NCBI GenBank assembly: GCA_016872285.1
Contig: VGZZ01000017.1
Span: forward strand, 1-47,447
Source: SAR202 cluster bacterium
GTDB taxonomy: Bacteria > Chloroflexota > Dehalococcoidia > Lucifugimonadales > GCA-2712585
Direction of reading: 5' to 3'
Length of the DNA stretch: 47,447 bases
The notes under the pieces are model-generated. The model was given only the letters and a program-made list of their open reading frames with translations. It did not search any database and was not told the DNA's origin. Numbering within the stretch: the first letter of the stretch is position 1; each line of letters opens with the position of its first letter. Of the stretch, positions 4,516 to 47,159 are shown in pieces. Made by a program: the position numbers and the translations under genes.

Positions 4516-4524
4516 CTCTCAGGT

Positions 4525-4570
4525 CTCCTCTCCCTTGATGGGAGAGGATTTAAGGTGAGGGTGAAGCCCT
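4525..4570 (+). repeat. Family A palindromic repeat, copy 2
   Basis: CCTCTCCCTTGATGGGAGAG stem, then AAGGTGAGGGTGAAGCCCT. The following ACGTCCGTCAGGCGAGACCA is shared with copy 5 near 25044. Confidence 0.8.
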
Positions 4571-4685
4571 GTGGACACATCACGTCCGTCAGGCGAGACC
4601 ATACCCTCCATGATCTCTCACTTAGGTCCTCTTCCCTCCTGAGGTCGAGCTCCTTACCTAACATCAATCTGAGATCCCAATGCCA

Positions 4686-6167: not shown

Positions 6168-7409
6168 TCATACCCCAGCCCTCTCCAGCACCCTGTCCAG
6201 CGTGTAGGCAAACCCCAGCGCCGCCAGGTCCCGACTGCCACCCATCGCCCTCGCCAGCCCGTCGTACCGCCCGCCTCCGCCCAAAGAGGCTTCGCCCTTC
6301 GAGTCCATAATCTCAAATACAATCCCCGTGTAATACGCGATACCCCGCGCCAGACCTAAATCAAGCGTAACCTCGGCGCCACCCAGCTCCTCCTTCTCCA
6401 CCAGCGACATCACCAACTCCAGCCGCTCCACCGATTCCATCGGCAGCTTGTTTGACGAAAACAGCACCCTGGCCTGCTTCAACGCCTTCCCCGGCTCCCC
6501 TCGAATCCCCGCCAGCTTCGACGAAAGCTCCAACGCCTTCTCCAGCCGCTTCGGGTCCTCCCCTCCTTGCAGCTTCCGCATCAGCCGCTCCGATATCTCG
6601 TCCGGCTGCCGCTGCCCCAGCGCCCCCGGTTCCTCCCGCTGTAGCAGGCTGCTGATCAACGCCTTAGACGGCGCTTCCGACAGTCCCTCGGGGAGCGGGC
6701 CGAGCGCAGCGAGTCCTGAGCGAAGTCCGTACTCGGACGTAGTCGAAGGATCTAATTCCTTTAACACCGTCTTACCGTTCCCCAACAACCGAAATCTCCT
6801 CGCCCGCTCCATCGCCGCCTCCAGCCCCTTGCCGCCCTCCCTAAGCAGCCCCACCTGGCTCAATACAAATACTCGCGCCCGCTCGCTCAACTTCTGGCTC
6901 TCCAGCAGCGCGTTGAATAACGACAGGTCCCCCAATACCAGCCGCACCTTCCCCACGCCCATCGACGCCAGCCCTTGGCACGCCAGCCCCAGCACCTCGC
7001 TGTCCGCCTCCGGCTCCCCTGACCCGATAAGCTCCACCCCTGCCTGGTTGAACTGTCGATATGCCTTCGAATCGTCGCTGTATCGAAACACCGGCCCAGC
7101 GTACTGCACCCGCACCGGCAGCTTCGGCATTCGCTCCCTCTCAATGAGCGAACGCACTATCGACGACGTGTACTCCGGCCGCAGGCTGACCTGGTTGCCC
7201 CCCGGGTCCGTAAACGAGTACATCTGCGACGCCATCTCCCCGCCGCCCTTCCTAAAGAACAGCTCCGTCGGCTCCAAAATGGGCGTCTCCATCAGCGCGT
7301 ACCCGCGCTTGGCAAAAAGGCGTGTCAGCTTGGCCTGGGCCTCATTCAGCGCCGCCCACGACTCCTGCGGCATGTCCCGCATCCCAGGCAGTTTCCGTAA
7401 TTTTTCCAT
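6168..7409 (-). CDS. hisZ: ATP phosphoribosyltransferase regulatory subunit (HisRS-like)
   Basis: HisZ is a histidyl-tRNA synthetase paralogue that supports HisG. The product (413 residues from ATG 7409) has class II synthetase features: KLPGMRDM at the N-terminus, a motif 2-like AGPVFRYSDDSKAYRQFNQAGVELIG, and LARGIAYYTGIVFE near the end. It stops at the motif 3 region (LGFAYTLDRVLERAGV), so the HisRS anticodon-binding domain is missing. This favours HisZ over a true synthetase. A TTG at 7442 would add 11 residues. Residues 220-238 contain STTSEYGLRSGLAALGP, encoded by a family E repeat inserted in frame. A near-identical peptide occurs in Asd. It is the first gene of the his cluster. Confidence 0.85.
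   Translation of the reverse strand: MEKLRKLPGMRDMPQESWAALNEAQAKLTRLFAKRGYALMETPILEPTELFFRKGGGEMASQMYSFTDPGGNQVSLRPEYTSSIVRSLIERERMPKLPVRVQYAGPVFRYSDDSKAYRQFNQAGVELIGSGEPEADSEVLGLACQGLASMGVGKVRLVLGDLSLFNALLESQKLSERARVFVLSQVGLLREGGKGLEAAMERARRFRLLGNGKTVLKELDPSTTSEYGLRSGLAALGPLPEGLSEAPSKALISSLLQREEPGALGQRQPDEISERLMRKLQGGEDPKRLEKALELSSKLAGIRGEPGKALKQARVLFSSNKLPMESVERLELVMSLVEKEELGGAEVTLDLGLARGIAYYTGIVFEIMDSKGEASLGGGGRYDGLARAMGGSRDLAALGFAYTLDRVLERAGV
6697..6753 (+). repeat. Family E mini-element in frame inside hisZ (57 bp)
   Basis: This copy runs from GGGCCGAGCGCAGCGAGT through GTCCGTACTCGGAC (itself palindromic) to TCGAAGGATCT. It equals 19 codons and is stop-free in the hisZ frame. It has the same length and reading frame as the copy in asd. 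Confidence 0.85.
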
Positions 7410-12292: not shown

Positions 12293-12377
12293 TCTAGGAC
12301 TAGTTGCTCTTTCCGACGCTCTCCCGGCTCCCTTCCCCCTTGAGATGCCGCTTGTCATGGCTCGGCCCTTCTTTTAC

Positions 12378-12424
12378 CCTTTCTCCCCCTTGATGGGGGA
12401 GAATAGAAGAGAGGGTGAAACCCT
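12378..12424 (+). repeat. Family A palindromic repeat, copy 4
   Basis: TTCTCCCCCTTGATGGGGGA stem, then GAGAGGGTGAAACCCT. Homology with copy 1 continues to about 12470 (CCTTTATCACTTCTAGTAG). It fills much of the 12293-12537 gap. Confidence 0.8.
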
Positions 12425-12537
12425 AGCGCCACGACCCTTTATCACTTCTAGTAGCCTCTGTTTTCTTCTCCCCTTAATACTGGGAGAATCAGCACCAGGC
12501 ATTTGTGGGGATTAAGGTGAGGTCTCTATCCCCAGAG

Positions 12538-24898: not shown

Positions 24899-24904
24899 TA
24901 GTCC

Positions 24905-24949
24905 TGTCATCCTGAGCACAGCCCGTACTAGGACGTAGTCGAAGGATCT
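24905..24949 (+). repeat. Family E element, intergenic
   Basis: TGTCATCCTGAGCACAGC, then GTACTAGGACGTAGTCGAAG and GATCT. The intergenic form has TGTCAT as left arm instead of the GGGCCGAGCG arm seen in genes. Confidence 0.75.
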
Positions 24950-24990
24950 GCGCCCATAGACTGGCCTCACATGGTCCCTTTCTTCTGGTC

Positions 24991-25035
24991 TCCTCTCCCC
25001 TGATGGGAGAGGATAAAAGGTGAGGGTGAAGCCCT
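24991..25035 (+). repeat. Family A palindromic repeat, copy 5
   Basis: TCCTCTCCCCTGATGGGAGA stem, then AAAAGGTGAGGGTGAAGCCCT, followed by AGCACTACGTTCCGTCCGTC shared with other copies. Confidence 0.8.
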
Positions 25036-25090
25036 AGCACTACGTTCCGTCCGTCAGGCTAAACCACACCCCCACCTGGCCCTCTCCGCT

Positions 25091-27013: not shown

Positions 27014-27595
27014 ATGCGCGCACCCTCCCTCGCACCCAGACCCTGGCGGCTCCTCCTCCCCTTCCTCCTCCTTACCCTCACCCTGGCCCTCGGCCTCGTC
27101 GCCTGCGCCGACGCCTCCACCCCGGCCGGCGGGGAACCGAGCGTAGCGAGTCCTGAGCGCAGCGAAGGACCTACCGCCGACCAGTCCAACGACGGCGGCT
27201 CCTCCGGGCGGGGGCCGAGCGAAGCGAGTCCTGAGCCTGTCGAAGGACCTCAGCGCTCCGCCCTCTCTAAAAGCGAGACCAGCGCCGGCGGGTCTGGCGG
27301 CGCCACCCAGCCCATGATGGCCGCCCCCGACCCCAACATGACCTATCAGTGGATCGGCGAAATCCTGGCCGGTGACGGCCGCGGCATCGAGCTCCGCTCC
27401 TCTATCTGCGGCGGCGAGGTCTGGGCATTGACCTTCGCCGACCCCGATCTCGAAAAGAAGGCTGCTAGCAGTGATGGTCAAAAGGTCATTATCTGGGGCA
27501 AGGTGTCCACCAAGAGCGACGTAAGCATTCAACCTCTAGCCCCAACCGCCTCCGCCGACACCGCCGTCTACAGCCGCCCCGCCATCGCCGTCTAG
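27014..27595 (+). CDS. Secreted lipoprotein, N-terminal part before in-frame amber codon
   Basis: The 193-residue ORF begins with a lipoprotein signal (hydrophobic run ending LVAC). A low-complexity linker follows in which two family E elements are translated (GEPSVASPERSEGP and RGPSEASPEPVEGP). The first globular module starts at MTYQWIGEILAGDGRGIELR and includes DGQKVIIWGKVS. It ends at TAG 27593-27595. The next ORF is in the same frame and opens with a second copy of the module (YAWIGAVVVSD...GQKVIIWGQVS), so the two are very likely one gene of 539 sense codons. An SD-like GAAAGGA precedes the ATG. Function unknown; a cell-surface protein. Confidence 0.65.
   Translation: MRAPSLAPRPWRLLLPFLLLTLTLALGLVACADASTPAGGEPSVASPERSEGPTADQSNDGGSSGRGPSEASPEPVEGPQRSALSKSETSAGGSGGATQPMMAAPDPNMTYQWIGEILAGDGRGIELRSSICGGEVWALTFADPDLEKKAASSDGQKVIIWGKVSTKSDVSIQPLAPTASADTAVYSRPAIAV
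27134..27172 (+). repeat. Family E mini-element in frame in lipoprotein gene (39 bp, copy a)
   Basis: Starts GAACCGAGCGTAGCGAGT and ends AGCGAAGGACCT; 13 codons, stop-free. Read from the opposite strand to the copies in hisZ and asd. Confidence 0.8.
27212..27250 (+). repeat. Family E mini-element in frame in lipoprotein gene (39 bp, copy b)
   Basis: Starts GGGCCGAGCGAAGCGAGT and ends CCTGTCGAAGGACCT; 13 codons. It lies 39 bases after copy a ends, so two insertions sit in one linker. Confidence 0.8.
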
Positions 27596-30804: not shown

Positions 30805-30847
30805 TTTAGTTCACTCCTTTGCGAGAATGGGACTGGCGGCTTTTATT

Positions 30848-30891
30848 GTCATTCTGAGCGGAGTCGGTACCCCGACGTAGTCGAAGAATCT
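30848..30891 (+). repeat. Family E element, intergenic
   Basis: TGTCATTCTGAGCGGAGTCG then GTACCCCGACGTAGTCGAAG and AATCT, in the dapA-asd gap. Confidence 0.75.
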
Positions 30892-30975
30892 GTTCTGCCT
30901 GCAACCTCGCCTCATTATTTGCCACTACGTCTCCCCTGGAAATGAAGGGGGTCGCCTTGCCTCTCCTTCTCCTTT

Positions 30976-31019
30976 CCTCTCCCTTGATGGGAGAGGACAT
31001 AAGGTGAGGGTGAAACCCT
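30976..31019 (+). repeat. Family A palindromic repeat, copy 6
   Basis: CCTCTCCCTTGATGGGAGAG stem, then AAGGTGAGGGTGAAACCCT. Confidence 0.8.
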
Positions 31020-31082
31020 GTAGGCTCGATGCATCTGGCAAACCAATTCATCATATCTTCTAAGAAAATTAGGTGTCCTCCC

Positions 31083-32198
31083 CTACTCTCCTCTGGCCGA
31101 CGCGCTATCCTTCCCAACCTTCAAGCACCCCCTCTTCAGCACCTCCTCCGCTATCTGCAAGGCGTTCAGCGCGGCGCCCTTCCTCAGGTTATCACTCACC
31201 ACCCACATCGCCAGGCCGTTCGACACCGTCGGGTCCCTCCGAATCCGTCCCACATACACATCGTCCGTGCCGCCCAGGTCCCACGGCATCGGGTACTTCG
31301 ACGACCCCGGCTCGTCCACCACCGTCACCCCCGGCATCGACGACAGCAGCCGCCGCGCCTCCTCCACCGACATAGGCCGCTGGAACTCGACATGTACCGC
31401 CTCGCTGTGGCACGTGTACACCGGCACCCTCACGCACGTCGCCGACACCTTGATGCTCGAATCGTGCATTATCTTGCACGTCTCCGCAATCATCTTCTCC
31501 TCTTCTTCGCTGTACCCGCTAGCGGCGAAGCTCCCAATCTGCGGCACCAGGTTGAACGCGATCTGATGCGGCAGCGCCTTGGCGTCCACCCTCTTGGGGC
31601 GGGGGCCGAGCGAAGCGAGTCCTGAGTGAAGTCCGTACTCGGACGTAGTCGAAAGATCTAAACCTAACAATTCAACCGACTGATCGTTTAATTCCGTCAC
31701 GGCCTGTCCTCCCGCTCCCGACACCGCCTGGTACGTGTCCACCACCACCCGCTTGATAGGGTTGGCTTTATGTAAAGGATGCAGCGCCATCACTAGCTGC
31801 GTCGTCGAGCAGTTGGGTATCGATATAATTCCGCGATGCCACTCCACGTCCTTGCCGTTGACCTCCGGTATCACCAGCGGCACGTCGTCCCGCATCCGGA
31901 ACGCCGAACTGTCGTCGATGACCAGGCACCCCCGCTCGTTGGCAAAGGGCTGTAGCTGTTTGCTGATGGTCGAGCTTACCGATATGAACGCGATGTCGAC
32001 GTTCTTGAAGGACTCTTGCTTGGTCTCCTGCACCACCATCTCCTGCCCCGCCACCGACATCCTCTTCCCTGCCGAACGATGCGATGCCAGCAGCTTCAGG
32101 TGGTTGATAGGAAACGGACGCTGTTCCAGTATCTTCAGGAACTCCCGCCCGACAGCTCCCGTAGCCCCGACCACCGCTATGTTCACTTCCCGTGCCAT
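31083..32198 (-). CDS. asd: Aspartate-semialdehyde dehydrogenase with repeat-encoded insert
   Basis: Asd reduces aspartyl phosphate to aspartate semialdehyde, the substrate of DapA. The 371-residue protein has the NADP loop VVGATGAVGREF (9-20), the catalytic Cys130 in IPNCSTTQLV, VDTYQAVSGAGG, and the His264 region VPVYTCHSEAV. Between VTELNDQSVELLG and ALPHQIAFNL, a variable surface segment in relatives, residues 181-199 read DLSTTSEYGLHSGLASLGP. This is the translation of a family E element and nearly the same as the insert in HisZ. GGACAGGAG precedes the ATG, 17 bases after the dapB stop, so dapB-asd is an operon. Confidence 0.95.
   Translation of the reverse strand: MAREVNIAVVGATGAVGREFLKILEQRPFPINHLKLLASHRSAGKRMSVAGQEMVVQETKQESFKNVDIAFISVSSTISKQLQPFANERGCLVIDDSSAFRMRDDVPLVIPEVNGKDVEWHRGIISIPNCSTTQLVMALHPLHKANPIKRVVVDTYQAVSGAGGQAVTELNDQSVELLGLDLSTTSEYGLHSGLASLGPRPKRVDAKALPHQIAFNLVPQIGSFAASGYSEEEEKMIAETCKIMHDSSIKVSATCVRVPVYTCHSEAVHVEFQRPMSVEEARRLLSSMPGVTVVDEPGSSKYPMPWDLGGTDDVYVGRIRRDPTVSNGLAMWVVSDNLRKGAALNALQIAEEVLKRGCLKVGKDSASARGE
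31603..31659 (+). repeat. Family E mini-element in frame inside asd (57 bp)
   Basis: Starts GGGCCGAGCGAAGCGAGT, passes GTCCGTACTCGGAC and ends TCGAAAGATCT; 19 codons, stop-free in the asd frame. It differs from the hisZ copy at few bases. Confidence 0.85.
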
Positions 32199-45351: not shown

Positions 45352-45360
45352 TCTCTCTCT

Positions 45361-45405
45361 TGTCATTCTAAGCGAAGAGCGTACTCGCACGCGGCCGAAG
45401 GATCT
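45361..45405 (+). repeat. Family E element, intergenic
   Basis: TGTCATTCTAAGCGAAGAGC, GTACTCGCACGCGGCCGAAG, GATCT. Confidence 0.7.
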
Positions 45406-45510: not shown

Positions 45511-45542
45511 AACACCCCATTGTCTACTTCACCTCTTTTTAA

Positions 45543-45566
45543 TGTAGAGGCAAGGTCGCCACGCCC
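45543..45566 (+). repeat. Family F repeat, diverged copy 5
   Basis: TGTAGAGGCAAGGTCGCCAC then GCCC. Confidence 0.6.
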
Positions 45567-45573
45567 TCTCCAC

Positions 45574-45619
45574 TCCTTCTCCCCCTTGATGGGGGAGAAT
45601 AGAAGAGAGGGTGAATCAC
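45574..45619 (+). repeat. Family A palindromic repeat, copy 7
   Basis: CTTCTCCCCCTTGATGGGGG stem, then AGAAGAGAGGGTGAATCACT, followed by the shared CGCTCCGTCCGCCAGGC segment. Confidence 0.8.
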
Positions 45620-45680
45620 TAGCACAACGCTCCGTCCGCCAGGCCAGACTACCCTTCCCTCTGGACTTCTCCTTCTGGTC

Positions 45681-46729: not shown

Positions 46730-46824
46730 TGACATCTTCTAATAGACTTAAGCAGCTCCTGTCACTTACCATTTATTAGTTATTAGCACCCAAGCGCCAT
46801 ATACGTCATTTAGGTGAGCCTTTA

Positions 46825-46859
46825 GCCCTGAGCGAAGTCCGTACTCGGACGTAGCCGAA
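46825..46859 (+). repeat. Family E element apparently nested in a family C repeat
   Basis: CCCTGAGCGAAGTCCGTACT then CGGACGTAGCCGAA, lying between a family C-like left end (GTCATTT at 46805) and right end (GAGACCTCAACGTCCCGTCC). Confidence 0.6.
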
Positions 46860-46930
46860 TGGGGAAGTCGAGAGACCTCAACGTCCCGTCCGCTACCATC
46901 ACCTTTCATATTGCTGACCACACTGTTCCT

Positions 46931-46967: not shown

Positions 46968-46974
46968 ACAGGAT

Positions 46975-47019
46975 TGTCATCCTGAGCGAAGTCGGTACTC
47001 CGACGCAGCCGAAGGATCT
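46975..47019 (+). repeat. Family E element, intergenic
   Basis: TGTCATCCTGAGCGAAGTCG, GTACTCCGACGCAGCCGAAG, GATCT. Confidence 0.75.
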
Positions 47020-47056
47020 ATGTCCAAAACCAACCTTTTGCCTGGCCCCTCTTCTT

Positions 47057-47101
47057 TCCTCTCCCTTGACGGGAGAGGATAAAAGGTGAGGGTGTAACCC
47101 T
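47057..47101 (+). repeat. Family A palindromic repeat, copy 8
   Basis: TCCTCTCCCTTGACGGGAGA stem, then AAAAGGTGAGGGTGTAACCCT. Confidence 0.8.
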
Positions 47102-47159
47102 GGCTCAACGATGCTGTGTCATCACCAACCTCTCACATAGCCCCTTCCTCTCCACTGCC

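Follow-up and report, generated by a model that had tools for sequence, protein, structure and literature searches.

The question raised by this locus is how a stop-free repeat came to lie inside hisZ, and by what route such a sequence could enter genes, in a window (the whole stretch of 47,447 nucleotides analysed here) where a nearly identical peptide is also encoded in asd. A first-pass annotation had placed a repeat inside hisZ, translatable in the hisZ frame, and both its place and the lack of stops were confirmed. The 57 bp, or 19 codons, that it assigned hold as a stop-free inner part of the element; the ends set by comparison of copies lie at 6691-6753, which gives 63 bp, or 21 codons. 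The minus-strand reading is DPSTTSEYGLRSGLAALGP, HisZ residues 220-238 counted from MEKLRK; these 19 amino acids follow from the codon-aligned positions 6696-6752, and an earlier version of the peptide had omitted DP. The claimed recurrence of the peptide in Asd was borne out, the copies in the two genes having 58 of 63 bases in common. When the window was shuffled with dinucleotides preserved, no repeat match appeared at up to three mismatches (expected 0.00).

6168 to 7409, minus strand: hisZ, ATP phosphoribosyltransferase regulatory subunit (PF13393), frame intact on both sides of the insert
6691 to 6753, plus strand: class A (long form) palindromic element inside hisZ; no relative's HisZ has the peptide
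31083 to 32198, minus strand: asd, aspartate-semialdehyde dehydrogenase; best PDB match gapped by 18 residues at the insert
31597 to 31659, plus strand: class A element inside asd; minus-strand reading DLSTTSEYGLHSGLASLGP, with S as residue 183

When HisZ of relatives was aligned, as had been proposed, the peptide was missing from all 29 Dehalococcoidia genomes compared and from 80 further public HisZ sequences, mostly from Dehalococcoidia or Chloroflexota, and it is therefore an insertion in this lineage. The nearest HisZ, at 57% identity, has an 18-column gap across the insert site, and the Asd of solved structure, when aligned with this Asd, lacks 18 residues at the peptide. In both genes the frame is kept and conserved sequence lies on both flanks of the insert. 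These alignments show that the hisZ sequence is inserted. The loop was modelled too, as suggested earlier: in the AlphaFold2 model of HisZ (mean pLDDT 76) the insert, at 223-241, is placed in an unstructured loop with pLDDT<50 between helices 194-206 and 246-258, and it is probably a disordered loop. The hisZ of an element-free relative (L225/L034; OY282371.1, G001) carries a 10-residue tandem duplication, PVLAQPVLVQ, exactly at the insert site, which is therefore a tolerant linker.

Copies with the class A prefix were found in hisZ, asd, recG, hutH, the genes of a solute-binding, a thioredoxin-like and a DUF3179 lipoprotein, at the end of a methyltransferase gene, and twice in the following ORF of the window, which has no Pfam match.

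27014 to 27595, plus strand: putative lipoprotein ORF (from the ORF list), two elements in its linker
27128 to 27172, plus strand: class A element, short tip, in this ORF; co-directional reading GGEPSVASPERSEGP
27206 to 27250, plus strand: class A element, short tip, in the same ORF; co-directional reading GRGPSEASPEPVEGP

Related copies without the exact prefix lie in fakA and in the genes of a DUF2298 membrane protein and a TenA-like protein. In hutH (PF00221), fakA (DAK2), DUF2298 and TenA a known domain surrounds the insert or lies past it; the recG insert is N-terminal to the wedge domain, and several lipoprotein inserts lie in the linker after the lipobox. Of the six frames of the 63-bp consensus, four contain no stop. 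One frame, DPSTTSEYGLRSGLA, is common to the six well-supported genes that read the element on its opposite strand (hisZ, asd, recG, hutH, fakA, DUF2298), so that one of three open frames is used in 6/6 such cases, probably because the peptide is a bland hydrophilic loop. Genes read with the element use GPSEASPE..VEG, the only co-directional frame open in the consensus, and TenA uses a different co-directional frame, opened by a TAG to CAG change. The copies in hutH (G000 C14:47273-47367) and fakA (C28:32486-32535) hold an extra palindromic piece nested inside, still in frame. A second fakA copy (G000 C28:33825-33890) stands directly after a stop and the sequence downstream resembles the continuation of the protein, so the insertion may have truncated the gene. 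Judged from the reading frames, insertion in frame is compatible with coding in many genes; a foreign, element-derived peptide is encoded within HisZ, Asd and some ten further proteins and would be translated in the cell.

The copy number implied by the first-pass annotation was too low, since the window holds extra copies and the genome (G000; a single draft of 2.6 Mb in 83 contigs, 95.6% complete) more than 100, as counted by sequence searches and in chosen stretches. The elements measure 45-63 bp and take two forms. Class B reads TGTCAT[T/C]C[T/C]GAGC - tip - GAAG[A/G]ATCT, and its prefix gave 104 matches versus 1 for the reversed control; class A, known from 13 prefix copies, reads GGGCGGGGGCCGAGCGAAGCGAGTCCTGAGC - tip - GAAGGATCT (13 matches versus 0). 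Besides the copies in hisZ, asd and the lipoprotein ORF, the window has at least five outside called genes.

24903 to 24949, plus strand: class B palindrome, intergenic, TGTCATCCTGAGC...GAAGGATCT (copy search)
30845 to 30891, plus strand: class B palindrome, intergenic, TGTCATTCTGAGC...GAAGAATCT (copy search)
45359 to 45405, plus strand: class B palindrome, intergenic according to the crude gene caller (copy search)
46819 to 46865, plus strand: related palindrome with other ends, GGTGAGCCTTTAGCCCTGAGC...GCCGAATGGGG (copy comparison)
46973 to 47019, plus strand: class B palindrome, intergenic (copy search)

In the hairpin an outer stem (ATTCT/AGAAT) is followed by an internal loop rich in purines and by a tip that varies. 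The outer stem covaries in 52/53 copies (TCT/AGA 28, CCT/AGG 16, TCC/GGA 8, one exception), and so do the tips (GTCCG/CGGAC, GTCGG/CCGAC, GCCTG/CAGGC, GTTCG/CGAAC, GTCCCGATG/CGTCGGGAC). Across the alignment 98.3% of cells are paired and five pairs are changed on both sides; neither the pairing percentage nor the covariation score is equalled in any of 500 shuffles. Since stems and tips covary, the structure is what is conserved. The plain folding energy of most single copies is not significantly below that of shuffles, and the hairpin is thus supported by covariation, not by folding energy. A riboswitch or other known RNA was ruled out, as at gathering scores the window had no match to any Rfam family. 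About ten class B copies (for example L186, L198, L187, L092, L175, L176, L170, L188, L209-L211) have another small repeat, CCTGTCCTGAGCCTGGTCGAAGG, nested in them, always at one point (GAAG^GAATCT). Class B copies of this genome are also followed by three recurrent tails (GTTATGACNGCNACC, AATCGCCGTGACYGCTGCCAC, ATGCCCANNNCCANCCT) and preceded by an A-rich stretch, so that the full unit may be about 100 bp. Dispersed repeats of another kind (CTCTCCCTTGATGGGAGAGGATAAAAGGTGAGGGTGAAACCCT and relatives) lie in the window at 1821-1909, 4519-4606, 12343-12431, 24984-25071, 30968-31055, 45539-45627 and 47050-47110, several of them near palindromes and oriented as these are.

Genic and intergenic placement was scored with a crude 3-periodic Markov gene caller over 0.73 Mb, in stretches chosen around copies. 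Of the class B copies 3/92 were called genic, one of them a chance match on the wrong strand, in sequence with a coding fraction of 0.73; for class A the figure was 9/13, and two further sites, in the DUF3179 lipoprotein and at the fakA end, were recognised on inspection. The genic share of class A is close to the coding fraction, and this form is therefore tolerated in genes rather than targeted to them; class A as a gene-targeting form was ruled out. The only other class A genome among the 393 sampled (G097) has it inside a longer repeat, mostly outside long ORFs. Copies that broke a frame would probably have been lost by selection.

Copies have a marked polarity relative to GC skew, which served as a proxy for replication direction. 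In 41 stretches of G000 the C-rich strand carries 104 copies against 1 for the G-rich strand, and all 13 class A prefix copies obey the rule. In a closed, single-contig relative of the same family (G004) the ratio is 39:1 in favour of the C-rich strand, and orientation tracks the sign changes of the skew, with one exception where the skew is weak; in G121, which belongs to another family, the ratio is 9:0 in favour of the C-rich strand. In five weakly skewed genomes (G006, G311, G057, G278, G244) the skew is too weak or mixed for polarity to be read, with 0:11 for the strict pattern in G311. Genes are divided 247/306 between the strands, and stretches that have genes on both keep a uniform skew, so polarity follows replication and not transcription; a gene-strand bias was ruled out as its cause on the same count. 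Base-composition skew was also rejected: counted by hand, the consensus is slightly richer in G than in C on the C-rich strand, from which the opposite polarity would be expected. The leading strand is usually G-rich and, given this, the strand reading TGTCATTCTGAGC would be the leading-strand template. In a search of open-access literature we found no report of comparable replication polarity.

The distribution of the repeat across the class is patchy: 105/393 genomes have it, copy numbers range from 0 to 454, and the family relatives G001 and G002 have none. The richest genome sampled by far is a 6.5 Mb Dehalococcoidia genome (G083), with 454 exact copies of the 17-mer TGTCATTCTGAGCGNAG. An IS110-family transposase, identified by tblastn to annotated IS110 transposases, has its 3' end joined to the palindrome at the same base (GGTTG|CTGAG) at 8/8 contig ends of G000 (C78, C33, C56, C14, C30, C26, C9, C29; L207-L214). 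The palindrome is therefore the fixed target of the IS110 element, which was ruled out as mobiliser since it is inserted within the palindrome. A test for MITEs found no autonomous partner, the IS110 insertion was the only IS at the repeat, and the relatives are too distant at the DNA level for target-site duplications to be read.

From these results we consider it probable that the hisZ insert is a copy of a non-autonomous, REP-like palindromic mobile hairpin that enters in fixed polarity relative to the fork. Such an element would spread through the genome in one polarity, and the simplest cause would be insertion as single-stranded DNA at replication forks, because this would account for polarity, hairpin and dispersal alike. 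Copies of 63 bp, or 21 codons, landing in exposed linkers without a frame shift would be tolerated and translated, because the length is divisible by three, stops are few and the landing sites are loops. More tentatively, the hairpin element might have no transposase, or be moved by some other enzyme, and enter in one polarity only, its variant serving as a portable 21-codon in-frame linker.

The main rival is biased loss, according to which both orientations are inserted and copies with the stabler hairpin strand in the lagging-strand template are deleted by replication slippage or hairpin nucleases. The two strands are indeed not equivalent: G.A pairs and a GCGAAGC turn (seen in the simple form TCTGAGCGAAGCGAAGA) are open to the top strand, and the bottom would have T.C mismatches. 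If the leading strand has its usual excess of G, the lagging-strand template does not contain the top strand, which is the one that survives. Nevertheless, even among short copies whose predicted hairpins are weak, more than 97% share one polarity, and predicted DNA folding energies differ between strands by only 0.2-0.8 kcal/mol, with parameters that treat G.A pairs poorly; we judge biased loss unlikely, if less so than the other alternatives. A canonical REP mobilised by its own RAYT (TnpA-REP, a Y1 transposase), the gene being merely missing from the draft, has in its favor that REPs are also short imperfect palindromes of high copy number, are IS110 targets and occur in frame on occasion (PMC3733652, PMC1525189), and that RAYTs act on single strands and their IS200/IS605 relatives use the lagging-strand template (PMC6006769). 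However, PF01797 (Y1 transposase/RAYT) is absent from G000 and from six family relatives, including the copy-rich, single-contig G004. Across the class Y1_Tnp is present in 7/15 copy-rich versus 6/15 copy-free genomes, and is therefore not associated with copy richness; the element does not flank the Y1_Tnp loci fetched, apart from scattered matches at one of them (L330), and copies do not start with GTAG or CGTC. A RAYT was rejected as mobiliser on its absence from the family genomes sampled and the lack of a class-wide association, and a gene lost from the draft seems to us quite improbable.

Two further readings invoke selection. Functional polar marks held in one orientation, like KOPS or Chi, would explain the near-perfect alignment of copies with the replication strand, but hardly the patchy presence across the class, the lack of copies in G001 and G002, the freely varying tips, the nested copies or the copies inside genes, and we think them very improbable. 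A peptide selected for its function in HisZ, Asd and the other proteins would fit the single frame used by all six well-supported opposite-strand insertions; yet the target proteins are unrelated, hosts on the element's own strand give a different peptide, GPSEASPERSPYSDVVEG, and the HisZ loop is predicted to be unstructured, so that we attach almost no weight to this idea.

The family bears on more than this locus. Translated palindromic elements are extended to Chloroflexota, with a large family and a measurable property, replication polarity above 97% in two related genomes and 9:0 in a third, which narrows how such elements move, a question shared with Rickettsia and CGTC-type repeats. Proteins predicted from metagenomes can gain inserted peptides in common in this way, with neither domain homology nor contamination behind them. 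The portable-linker reading, if true, would mean that foreign peptides are written into proteins by a route coupled to replication.

In-frame palindromic elements were first described in Rickettsia (Ogata 2000, 2002; reviewed in PMC10969869), and in-frame REPs were reported in several other bacteria and phyla in 2013 (Di Nocera 2013, PMC3733652). The likeness to Rickettsia palindromic elements (RPEs) drawn in the first-pass annotation stands insofar as the present family works alike in another lineage (palindromic, in frame, in unrelated proteins, in a flexible loop); it is not the only such case outside Rickettsia (PMC3733652). As in RPEs, palindromic repeats lie in frame in unrelated protein genes at sites predicted to be compatible with structure. 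The RPEs first reported measure about 150 bp, against 45-63 bp here, and belong to Alphaproteobacteria, not Chloroflexota; near-absolute replication polarity is not reported for them in the literature covered. RPE-4 and RPE-6 are CGTC-tagged (PMC3733652), whereas the Chloroflexota copies do not start with CGTC, and the family, compared with RPEs by description, is not filed as a member.

With the GTAG and CGTC REPs the family shares short, high-copy palindromes that are mostly intergenic and in several phyla sometimes inside genes, and CGTC repeats likewise lack a flanking transposase (PMC3733652). It has no terminal tag: 99 class B copies start with TGTCAT and typically end with GAAGRATCT, and class A starts with GGGCGGGG. 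Consequently it is not filed among the GTAG/CGTC REPs. Its copies also lie nearly all in one orientation, which follows replication, and do not form inverted dimers, and the cognate Y1_Tnp gene flanked by the repeat that marks the GTAG REP/RAYT system was not found. In the loose sense the elements are REPs, being short imperfect palindromes of high copy number, mainly extragenic and under structural constraint. IS200/IS605 elements (IS608) resemble them in having hairpins at their ends and in being tied to the replication fork through the lagging-strand template (PMC6006769), but differ in that the genome and sampled family have no Y1 transposase and the element is only 45-63 bp long. The IS110 family is known to target REPs (PMC1525189, PMC11208160), and the IS110-type element at one fixed position here is likewise a user of the palindrome and not its source. 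A literature search with the repeat sequence found no relevant paper; in viral contigs the specific tip was not found, and 58 stretches match the simple form. On the tests applied, the palindrome family is new. The kind of system, translated REPs or RPEs, is already known; what is new is the missing mobiliser together with a near-absolute replication polarity.
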